A stretch of DNA of 64,000 nt from Desulfocapsa sp. Its GTDB lineage: Bacteria; Desulfobacterota; Desulfobulbia; Desulfobulbales; Desulfocapsaceae. The position numbers and the translations under genes were made by a program. The stretch covers positions 1-64,000 of the forward strand of contig JAESPV010000095.1 in the NCBI GenBank assembly GCA_016765495.1, read 5' to 3'. Positions within the stretch are counted from its first letter, which is position 1. Every line of letters begins with the position of its first letter. The notes under the pieces are model-generated. The model made no database searches, was not told where the DNA came from, and was given only the letters and a program-made list of their open reading frames with translations. Below are positions 2,319 through 6,613 of the stretch, one piece after another.

Positions 2319-3041
2319 ATGGAAGATTTTGCAAAAACCCTGGCCTTTGAAGTCAAAAAAGACATCGCTGAACGCTATTTCGGATTCCGAAAAATCATTG
2401 AAGACAATTCTAATGATTACCAGAAGGAAATCATCAGTTCTGCCCTTTTGCTGGAAACCCGAATTGGCTTTGACCTGCTTCGTATCTACGCACTTCTCCG
2501 GGATGACGAGCTTATCAAACAATTTTACAAACTCACAAACCTTGGCGATATCCTCTTTTTTGATTCCTATGTAAACAACTCTCCCACCATTCGTAAGCGG
2601 CTGTTTGAAGACCAGAAAACAACAGGTTTTTTTCGAAAATCACGCTTTACTAATATGTTTCTTGAGGTATACAAAAGCCTCTCTCACCATGTGGACAACT
2701 ACCGCACCCGTATTGCATCCCTTGTCGAGAACCATGATGTCATCAAGGAAGAGATTAACATTTTTTACCAGAAAAATGACATCAGCGGCATCATGCTTTT
2801 TCTACGCAATCTTGATGGTGACAGCAGCACCTCCGGTACCATGTCCGGCAGCCTTGAGAGTGGTGGAGCAATAAGCATGGAGAACAAAATGCGCCTTCAC
2901 GCTCCAGAACCTGTAGAGAAGTTCCTTCCCGTTCTTGAAGCCATTCCAGACCCATCATCCATTAAATCCGAACTTAAAAACCTTATAAATAGCGCCTACT
3001 ACAAACAACCAGACTTAGATTTAAAAGAACTATGCATGTAA
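2319..3041 (+). CDS. conserved hypothetical protein, 240 aa
   Basis: Family not recognised. The start is supported by a GAGGTG ribosome site at 2309-2314. The protein is soluble and charged, with no signal peptide or membrane segment. The first 150 residues look mostly alpha-helical. A Ser/Gly/Thr-rich linker (about 170-185) precedes a short C-terminal helical part. It is divergent from dnaG, and its 3' end overlaps the start of a broken reading frame at 3032, suggesting that a second gene was once translationally coupled to it. No function is proposed. Confidence 0.75.
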   Translation: MEDFAKTLAFEVKKDIAERYFGFRKIIEDNSNDYQKEIISSALLLETRIGFDLLRIYALLRDDELIKQFYKLTNLGDILFFDSYVNNSPTIRKRLFEDQKTTGFFRKSRFTNMFLEVYKSLSHHVDNYRTRIASLVENHDVIKEEINIFYQKNDISGIMLFLRNLDGDSSTSGTMSGSLESGGAISMENKMRLHAPEPVEKFLPVLEAIPDPSSIKSELKNLINSAYYKQPDLDLKELCM

Positions 3042-4287: not shown

Positions 4288-4325
4288 AACCCCGCAATTA
4301 CTCATAAGTATTGCGGGGTTTTGAA
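4288..4325. terminator. bidirectional rho-independent terminator between htpX and the TIM-like gene
   Basis: Perfect 11-bp stem AACCCCGCAAT (4288-4298) / ATTGCGGGGTT (4310-4320) with an 11-base loop. TTTTG follows on the plus strand. On the minus strand the stem is followed by GGCTTTTTT. The genes on either side converge, which fits a shared terminator. Confidence 0.85.
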
Positions 4326-4427: not shown

Positions 4428-5123
4428 TTACAGTGATTCTCCTACCTTATTGCAAATTGTAGCAAAAGATTCTGCATCAAGACTTGACTCCCCGACAAAA
4501 AGACCGGAAAGTTCAGAGATTGCAATATACTCATCAACATTCTCCACCGTTAAAGAACCGCCATACAGGATGGGTCTATTGGCTTGAACCTGGCTGATAA
4601 ATTTGGCTGCTTCTGCCACACGCTCTACTTGTGCCGGGATCCTGGCCATTGTTGCTTCCGTTGGACCATAGGCAATAAGCAACTCATCGCAGTCAATATC
4701 ATTTAAGGCTGTAAGTTGTGACATTGCATATGGTTGATCGATGCAGACTATGGGCTTCAGACCCGCATCGACGGTCTCCGCCATCTTATTGGCCGTATCC
4801 TGTGAGGTCTCATGAAAGTAGCGCCTTCGTTCCGAATGACCTATGATTACATAGCCAACCATTCCCTTAATCATATCTGCTGATATTGCACCTGTATAAG
4901 AACCCTTGGGAAATGGTGATACATCCTGAGCAGCGAGCGAAACATTTTTCAGATCAAGTGCCTGTACATATTCGGACAAACTGCACAAACAGATGCAAGG
5001 AGGCGCAACGATCACCTCCAGACCATCAACCGGCTTGTAAATATTTGCAAATTCAGAAAACCATTTTTGGGCAGAGTCCCGACTCTTGTTGCTCTTCCAG
5101 TTTCCAATTATGTATTTCTTCAT
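4428..5123 (-). CDS. triosephosphate isomerase homologue lacking the catalytic glutamate
   Basis: A TIM-barrel protein of the triosephosphate isomerase family (231 aa; usual length about 250). Conserved features: GNWKSN with N8 and K10, IIGHSERR with the electrophilic H96, and the phosphate-binding YGGS (187-190) plus GLFVGESSL near the C-terminus. The catalytic-base motif, normally YEPVWAIGTG, reads AYGPTEATMARIPAQ here. The glutamate is therefore G153 and flexible loop 6 is shortened and changed. The usual CIGE motif is also altered, to CIDQ at 127-130. Known isomerases need that glutamate, so activity is doubtful. A paralogue with another role, or a degenerating tpiA, is more likely. If it is the only copy in the genome, that reading needs revision. 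Confidence 0.8.
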   Translation of the reverse strand: MKKYIIGNWKSNKSRDSAQKWFSEFANIYKPVDGLEVIVAPPCICLCSLSEYVQALDLKNVSLAAQDVSPFPKGSYTGAISADMIKGMVGYVIIGHSERRRYFHETSQDTANKMAETVDAGLKPIVCIDQPYAMSQLTALNDIDCDELLIAYGPTEATMARIPAQVERVAEAAKFISQVQANRPILYGGSLTVENVDEYIAISELSGLFVGESSLDAESFATICNKVGESL

Positions 5124-5255: not shown

Positions 5256-6272
5256 TTATTTTTCTTCCTCTTTATTTTCCAGGCTGAATAATTCCTTTAG
5301 ATCAGCGTCAGCATCAATTACTTTCCCGTCATCACCTTTTAGCAGAGAATCAAGTATTTTTTCATCAATATCGCTTGAAAAAGGAGCCTCGCCAGAGTCA
5401 TCATTCAACCTTGCGACATCTTCAGGGTTCAGGGAGCCATCTTCATTTATTTCCACCGATTGAAAAAGTTCACTGCTTCCCTCAGTGCCTGTTGTTTCTG
5501 TTGCAACTTGCTTTTCTGAAGTTCCCCCATCATCTAAACCGAAAACGTCTATGGCTTCCATATACCCCTCAAGAATTGCTTTCAGATCCGCTTTCACCTC
5601 ACTCTTTTTCTTCTGGAGTATTTCTATCTCACGGGGTAAACGCTCAAGCTCCTCCTGAGCGTCAGCACGAATTTTTTCAATCGCAGCATGAGCCTTGGAA
5701 ATCATCTCTTTCGCTTCTAACTTACTCTTTTCCTTAAGGTCTTTTGCAAATAGCTGGACTGAGGCCAGGGTGGACTTAAAATCGACCTCATCCTTCCTTA
5801 GTTCCTCATTTTGTTCCTTAAGAATTTCAATCTTACTCTTCAGAGTATTTTTCTCTTTTTCCGATTCCTTAAGTGCCGCCTCAACCTCCTCAATCATGGC
5901 TTCCATGGTACTAACTTCTTCGTCATGCTCGGCATCTTCCTGCTTCGTATCGGCAAGGCTAAGCTGTAATTCTTCTATTTCCTTTGCAAGCTCTTTTAAC
6001 TTTTCTTCCTTTTGCGTACAGCTATCCTTTAACTCATCGGATACTTTCCTGGTAAACTCCATATCGGTTTCGAGAGAACCGGTATATTTTTCCGAGTTTT
6101 CTTTGGCCTCACGCAGAGCTTCAAGTTCTTCCAACTGCTCTGCACACTGCTCCTGCAACTCGAAGAACTCATTGGCGACAACCTCAAGATAATCCCTTAC
6201 TTCCAAAGGATCACATCCTCTGAATTTTTGTTCAAATTCCTGATCTTTGATTAATTGTGGAGTTATAGCCAT
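5256..6272 (-). CDS. DivIVA-domain coiled-coil protein
   Basis: 338 residues. The first 40 (ITPQLIKDQEFEQKFRGCDP, then EVRDYLEVVANEF) match the DivIVA N-terminal lipid-binding domain. A long Glu/Lys/Leu-rich coiled coil follows (about 40-220), then an acidic, probably disordered tail. DivIVA proteins mark curved membranes at poles and septa. In Gram-negative relatives the role is poorly defined. A good ribosome site (AAAGGTGAA) precedes the start at 6272. It is downstream of yggT with about 40 bases between them, an arrangement that recalls the sepF-ylmG-divIVA grouping of other bacteria. Confidence 0.88.
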   Translation of the reverse strand: MAITPQLIKDQEFEQKFRGCDPLEVRDYLEVVANEFFELQEQCAEQLEELEALREAKENSEKYTGSLETDMEFTRKVSDELKDSCTQKEEKLKELAKEIEELQLSLADTKQEDAEHDEEVSTMEAMIEEVEAALKESEKEKNTLKSKIEILKEQNEELRKDEVDFKSTLASVQLFAKDLKEKSKLEAKEMISKAHAAIEKIRADAQEELERLPREIEILQKKKSEVKADLKAILEGYMEAIDVFGLDDGGTSEKQVATETTGTEGSSELFQSVEINEDGSLNPEDVARLNDDSGEAPFSSDIDEKILDSLLKGDDGKVIDADADLKELFSLENKEEEK

Positions 6273-6313: not shown

Positions 6314-6613
6314 TTAGTGTATTCCCATGCCCATCTGTTTTAAAGTTGGTACAAGAAAACTTTGAAGAAACATAATCGCCATAATTAAAATCATGGGTGA
6401 AAAATCAATTCCCCCCACACTCATAGGAACCAAACGCCTGATACGGCTTAGCAGTGGTTCGGTTATATTAAACAAAAAACGAACAATTGGATTATAGGGA
6501 TCTGCATTCACCCAGGAAATAATTGCCCGGCCAATGATGATCCACATATAGGCCGTAAGCAAAAAATCAATTAACTGCGCTATGGCCATTATAAAATTAT
6601 TTACAACAAACAT
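6314..6613 (-). CDS. YggT family membrane protein
   Basis: 99 residues with two hydrophobic segments at about 6-28 and 72-90. The conserved YggT/Ycf19 block lies between them: IIIGRAIISWVNADPYNPIV followed by LFNITEPLLSRIRRLVP. Members are small integral membrane proteins linked with cell division, osmotic stress or chloroplast nucleoid organisation. The biochemical function is unknown. It lies between metG and the divIVA-type gene on the same strand. Confidence 0.92.
   Translation of the reverse strand: MFVVNNFIMAIAQLIDFLLTAYMWIIIGRAIISWVNADPYNPIVRFLFNITEPLLSRIRRLVPMSVGGIDFSPMILIMAIMFLQSFLVPTLKQMGMGIH

Follow-up and report, generated by a model that had tools for sequence, protein, structure and literature searches.

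A triosephosphate isomerase paralogue without the catalytic glutamate is widespread in Desulfobulbia

Introduction

Triosephosphate isomerase (TIM) is the textbook example of catalytic perfection, and few catalytic elements in biochemistry have been studied as closely as its base Glu165 and its loop 6. A natural, class-wide paralogue that has the binding residues without the base, such as the protein described here, TIM2, prompts two questions: what use the TIM pocket might have apart from isomerisation, and whether a catalytic carboxylate can move. None of the titles and abstract openings listed in the literature searches describes a natural Glu-less TIM. Annotation is a further concern, as genes of this kind called triosephosphate isomerase would mislead metabolic models, with Desulfocapsa sulfexigens as an example if its gene UWK_01623 is TIM2. 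In the excerpt of the D. sulfexigens genome paper used here (PMC3739170), UWK_00786 and UWK_01623 are both named as triosephosphate isomerases and UWK_00787 as pgk; UWK_01623 is presumably the TIM2 gene.

Standard TpiA (PF00121) has in common with TIM2 the fold, the Asn/Lys/His set, Glu98, Cys127, YGG and the loop-6 hinge proline. TIM2 differs from TpiA in having no Glu at the base position, a rebuilt loop-6 tip, acids at positions 129 and 156, a shorter chain after strand 5, and GE in place of GG in loop 8; the normal TIM of its own host is 36 % identical to it over the matched stretch. Three TIMs from Levy- and Gottesmanbacteria (L053, L054 and L056) resemble TIM2 in length (225-228 aa) and in being shortened after strand 5, at 34-35 % identity, and L053 and L054, but not L056, share the motif QD[VI]SPFP with it; unlike TIM2, all three retain YEPV[WF]AI with its Glu. 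The best PDB sequence match to TIM2, chain 7r9b (E 9.4e-36), is likewise short (223 aa) and has Glu at the 156 position, but it differs in carrying Asp at the base position and in keeping AIGTG in loop 6, and it may be a TIM2-like intermediate. A parallel from outside the family is the trypanosome AdoMetDC prozyme, a dead paralogue that, in excerpts of its literature, is described as having lost a catalytic residue whilst being kept beside an active copy. TIM2 similarly has lost its catalytic residue, is under selection and accompanies an active-looking copy.

Gene and predicted structure

The window analysed here is a stretch of 64,000 nucleotides of Desulfocapsa sp. DNA. TIM2 occupies 4428..5123 on the minus strand as an intact reading frame of 231 aa with an ATG start, six bases 5' of which lies AAGGAG (5135-5130, minus strand); the plus strand of the same interval contains stops in frame 1. 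The protein is a homologue of the TIM family by its Pfam match (PF00121, 177.2 bits against a cut-off of 20.1) and falls below the TIGR00419 equivalog cut-off (97.4 against 130.6 bits). The host's normal TIM passes the latter with 211 bits, but the Glu-bearing candidate-phyla TIM L053 also fails with 109.7 bits, so the TIGR00419 cut-off by itself is no marker of TIM2. An AlphaFold2 model (pLDDT 83, pTM 0.85) predicts a TIM barrel with eight strands, with pLDDT below 50 at residues 73-77 and 98-104 (12 residues), and the 50 matches listed in a Foldseek search with this model were all TIM (TM by query length 0.78-0.88), the first listed being an Absconditabacteria TIM with a TM of 0.86.

A hairpin followed by six U (4288..4320, read 4320-4288 on the minus strand; -19.9 kcal/mol) lies between TIM2 and the converging htpX gene. 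Its fold has a z score of -4.89 and none of 200 shuffles was as good, although it was not among the predictions of a simple terminator scan. Since htpX converges on it, the hairpin may serve as terminator to both genes. An earlier note on this DNA, made from the sequence, had described TIM2 as intact with its own terminator close by, and both points agree with these findings.

A standard tpiA in the same genomes

A Pfam TIM search of the window's own assembly returned two genes, TIM2 and a normal tpiA (C82:68419-69156). The latter encodes YEPVWAIGTG and lies between pgk and secG on the same contig, 4.4 kb past the end of the window and 64 kb from TIM2. TIM2 is therefore a second copy and not the sole tpiA, which upholds the earlier note's proposal of a paralogue and disposes of the opposite case that it had raised, that this might be the only tpiA in the genome.

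Across the class, 130 of 143 genomes with TIM2, counted by eye, also carry a complete standard tpiA (best match to PF00121 at E ≤ 1e-80), including 11/11 of those assembled in one to three contigs (G017, G026, G027, G035, G036, G037, G128, G147, G148, G162 and G193). The remaining 13 (G031, G039, G067, G072, G078, G082, G113, G134, G146, G151, G161, G180 and G233) had none; G067, G078 and G233 are 90 % complete or more. The 13 drafts suggested that TIM2 might act as the sole isomerase. In these genomes, however, pgk had no match in nine, was a fragment in two (G151 and G161) and was full in only two (G134 and G180). Control genomes with a normal tpiA carried pgk in 8/8 cases (partial in G066), within a few hundred bases of tpiA in 7/8, the tpiA position not being listed for the eighth (G232). 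With pgk missing or fragmentary in 11 of the 13, and beside tpiA in the controls, the pgk-tpiA stretch is probably absent from the assemblies; this would account for most of the 13 but not for G134 and G180, and the idea of a sole isomerase was dropped with these two as exceptions. G134 (56 % complete) and G180 (88 %) thus combine TIM2 and a full pgk with no full normal tpiA, and G180 has a second, partial TIM match.

Conservation of the active site

Conservation was assessed in 112 distinct TIM2 proteins (72 from the window's family and named records, 40 from other families or from family f6), a set that does not represent each of the 143 TIM2 genomes, and site residues were compared with 13 reference TIMs. 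TIM numbering of K12, H95, E165, P166, I170, G171, S211, L230, G232 and G233 follows an excerpt of PMC12874384.

The residues Asn10, Lys12 and His95 of the enzyme are present in TIM2 as Asn8 (5102-5100), Lys10 (5096-5094) and His96 (4836..4838), all coordinates in this section being on the minus strand. Asn8 is found in 110/110 and Lys10 in 109/110 sequences, two of the 112 rows having no letter at either position; His96 is kept in 111/112 and Glu98 in 107/112. The YGGS phosphate site of loop 7 (residues 187-190, 4554..4565) is also kept, its Tyr in 110/112 and its two Gly in 111/112 each, with the Ser in 70/92 proteins outside f6 and Gly in its place in 20/20 of f6. In loop 8, GG has become Gly211-Glu212 (4488..4493), Gly211 being present in 106/112 and position 212 variable. 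TIM2 therefore retains the equivalents of K12, G232 and mostly S211, but not those of the loop-6 tip and G233.

At the catalytic base the picture differs. Where TIM has Glu165 within YEPVWAIGTG (Glu in 13/13 reference TIMs), TIM2 has Gly153, encoded by GGT at 4667-4665, and the motif reads YGPTEATMARIPAQ. The position is Gly in 62 TIM2 proteins, Thr in 33, Cys in 10, Ser in three, and Glu, Asp, Asn and Ile in one each; it is thus one of four small residues (Gly, Thr, Cys or Ser) in 108/112 and without a carboxylate in 110/112. A sequencing error at codon 153 was rejected, as the same change is present in relatives. Loop 6 as a whole (4629..4664) reads PTEATMARIPAQ, against PVWAIGTGKTAT in the host's normal TIM. 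Judged by these residue counts and by column entropy (ranks among 231 columns: Asn8 1, His96 18, Lys10 22, position 153 115), the binding half of the site is tightly constrained and the base position much freer.

TIM2 also has two characteristic acids that none of the 13 reference TIMs shares. Asp129 (4737..4739) stands where TIM has the Gly of CIGE; it is Asp or Glu in 106/112, against Gly (10), Gln (2) or Ala (1) in the references. Glu156 (4658-4656), in loop 6, stands in place of Trp168 of TIM (the Gly and Glu of CIGE being Gly128 and Glu129 in TIM numbering); it is Asp or Glu in 99/112, with an acid at 155 or 156 in 107/112, against Trp (12) or Phe (1) in the references. None of the 112 lacks both acids, an observation that carries no weight, since independent losses would be expected to produce only about 0.3 such cases.

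These data bear out the earlier note's reading of the site, namely Gly for the catalytic Glu (Glu is absent from 111/112 relatives), an altered loop-6 motif, retention of N8, K10, H96 and YGGS, and CIDQ for CIGE at residues 127-130. The acids at 129 and 156 and the change of GG to GE in loop 8 are additions to that note, which also named no strand.

Three departures from the general pattern were seen. In L129 (genome G070, 4302 onwards), the sole protein of the 112 with Glu at the base position, both His96 and YGGS are gone; a one-residue gap may have caused a misalignment here. L187 has Asp at that position and lacks Lys10 and Glu98. The proteins of family f6 (L155-L174) have Thr at the base position (19/20), YGGG (20/20), Glu161 (19/20) and often Arg212 (11/20), which on this residue pattern is a second, different rebuild of the TIM2 site. 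Their new acids are present at 129 in 15/20 and at 156 itself in 11/20, and N8, K10 and H96 in 20/20.

Distribution, selection and origin

At a profile match of E 1e-40 or better, TIM2 was present in 143/257 genomes and 44/69 genera of the class, so that the clade with the same change that the earlier note had proposed looking for exists and is class-wide. Within the genus it was found in 18/20 genomes, G012 having only the normal gene and G018 only a 23-residue piece. The closest named records come mostly from Desulfocapsa and Desulfobulbaceae, and NCBI places Desulfocapsa in the class Desulfobulbia, which points to Desulfobulbia as the class of the genomes surveyed. Sampling the phylum evenly, 13/395 genomes matched the TIM2 profile at 1e-42; eight belong to the class, and two of the five outside it were read (L195 and L196) and are normal TIMs with Glu. 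TIM2 is dispensable and can be lost, because five one-contig genomes (G129, G169, G170, G174 and G185), each with one TIM gene, are without it at the threshold used.

TIM2 is under purifying selection. The median dN/dS was 0.063 for 16 genes of the genus (36 of 120 pairs with finite dS, synonymous sites being saturated in the others), and 0.059 for the normal tpiA (six pairs; 4/11 loci matched the start pattern). A wide clade under such selection means that decay is not the explanation, as the earlier note had argued from the intact gene and its nearby terminator, and decay of TIM2 was rejected. Individual copies do look broken: the N-terminus is not intact in G015, G024 and one of two copies in G088, and the G027 copy lies in two frames; assembly error and real damage cannot be told apart in these. 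Seven f6 matches contain one stop (G124, G128, G141, G143, G145, G147 and G148), and the four that were read (L161, L164, L165 and L166) have frames of 222-229 aa, which puts the stop at an end there.

A tree of 75 rows (47 of the 112 TIM2 proteins, 12 normal TIMs of the phylum and 16 others) resolved TIM2 as one clade of 47 rows (SH-aLRT 99), joined by the three short Levy- and Gottesmanbacteria TIMs (SH-aLRT 96). Constraining TIM2 to group with ten normal TIMs of the class cost 40 log units (AU p 0.037, a borderline value for a hypothesis chosen after the tree was seen and with long branches). On the tree and this borderline test, descent as a recent duplicate of the host's tpiA is disfavoured, and TIM2 is probably no recent copy of it. 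TIM2 groups broadly track host families, a pattern suggestive of a single origin, predating the class or early in its history, followed by mostly vertical descent with losses, and the source was possibly transfer from a donor resembling candidate phyla. A PHROGs search for phage origin gave no match. The 300 plasmid records that matched TIM2 were all below 60 % identity, and among the 15 listed, 13 were annotated tpiA and two were unannotated.

Possible functions of TIM2

The reading that we favour, at about even chances, is that TIM2 is an old paralogue that binds a triose-phosphate-like ligand and does not isomerise it in the TIM way, acting as a binding or sensing pseudoenzyme; behind it we rank a moved carboxylate, then a partner subunit of the normal enzyme and last an ordinary or decaying TIM. 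Asn8, Lys10 and His96, with Glu98, would hold the carbonyl or enediolate oxygens of a triose, and YGG of loop 7 with Gly211 of loop 8 would make up most of the phosphate site. As Asn, Lys, His and YGG are kept, triose phosphate or a close analogue should still bind. The catalytic base is replaced by Gly153 and the closing loop 6 is rebuilt; with no base at position 153, isomerisation by the TIM mechanism would not be expected. Even the E165D change, which makes the base one carbon shorter, lowers the kcat/Km of TIM 420-fold, according to an excerpt of PMC12874384. Loop 6 would close over the ligand in another way, and the outcome of binding would be a signal or regulatory contact rather than glycolytic flux, which the normal tpiA would carry. 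Family f6, in which the acids are least constant and N8, K10 and H96 invariant, fits a protein that binds its ligand but has no new base at a set position. Several points count against a pseudoenzyme. His96 and Glu98 are retained, as they would be in an active enzyme, although a protein that only senses could do without them; all 112 proteins have an acid at 129 or at 155/156 that could be a displaced base; the gene context names no regulatory partner; TIM2 is dispensable; and G134 and G180 have a full pgk but no full tpiA.

A base moved in this way is the chief competitor, a real though less probable option. The carboxylate of an enediolate enzyme would then come from Asp129, where strand 5 ends, from Glu/Asp156 of loop 6, or from both, and would act on a triose phosphate or a related sugar phosphate through the gap that the small residue at 153 leaves; TIM2 would be a TIM with a new lid, perhaps with a new sugar-phosphate substrate, kept class-wide beside the standard enzyme. 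Two new and widely conserved acids mean that the carboxylate may have moved rather than vanished, and the enediolate-stabilising Lys and His are kept. Chain 7r9b, the closest solved chain by sequence, combines an acid at each of the base and 156 positions, and the abstract of a review (PMC10211241) allows that in certain pseudoenzymes the catalytic residues may have migrated. Set against this are the less constant acids of f6 and the weightless co-occurrence of the two. The geometry of loop 6 is a further difficulty. In canonical TIM the Trp168 side chain lies outside the pocket, and as the hinge Pro154 is kept in TIM2, an acid at 156 may not reach the ligand site.

An unlikely third reading, drawn by analogy, would have TIM2 pair with the normal TIM through loop 3, which is kept, and tune its activity. 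Loop 3 forms the TIM dimer, and in TIM2 it is among the most conserved stretches (S69, P72, G74 and Y76 in 112/112, Q66 in 111/111). It nevertheless reads QDVSPFPKGSYTGA, against QNVCWEEQGAFTGE in the host's normal TIM, which makes a homodimer no less likely, and the 64 kb between the two genes also speaks against a partnership. Precedents exist in activators that are dead paralogues, as in some trypanosome enzymes (excerpts of PMC5201418 and PMC3663545).

Finally, an isomerase of the ordinary kind or a backup for it, as the D. sulfexigens annotation would have it, or a decaying copy is very improbable, for despite the two isomerases named there, the 13 drafts without a full tpiA and the few broken-looking copies, the base position almost always has no carboxylate, a full pgk is likewise missing from most of the 13, and the low dN/dS and wide retention oppose decay.

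Neighbouring genes

Upstream of TIM2 lie a DivIVA-like gene (5256..6272, minus strand), assigned from Pfam and synteny with no functional link implied, and yggT (6314-6613), the two being the usual TIM2 neighbours in the window's family; the usual gene order in the genus is metG, yggT, divIVA, TIM2. Among 80 loci, DUF167 was within reach in 49, yggT in 44 and divIVA in 30, the carriers belonging to families f1 and f6: the three genes adjoin TIM2 in f1 and in much of f6. At other loci the neighbours are unrelated and include YaaA, DUF599, an epimerase, ThiF, GNAT, an FMN reductase and an M3 peptidase, as well as EamA, an IMS polymerase, a methyltransferase and an ice-binding protein, amongst others. 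A link to cell division through the neighbours was considered and dropped, as they differ outside f1 and f6. With neighbours conserved in much of two families and unrelated elsewhere, the context gives no function for TIM2.

Five second copies of TIM2 were seen in genus g16 (L111, L112, L114, L116 and L148). Those of L112, L114 and L116 follow a CBM48/alpha-amylase gene of the same orientation at a distance of 4 to 243 bases (amylase genes at L112 4896-6734, minus; L114 4952-6739, minus; L116 2150-3952, plus), an arrangement that offers a hint, and only a hint, of sugar metabolism. Elsewhere in the window, 2319-3041 on the plus strand encodes a 240-aa protein with no Pfam match beside dnaG, and several related loci likewise have a relative of this protein close to dnaG.
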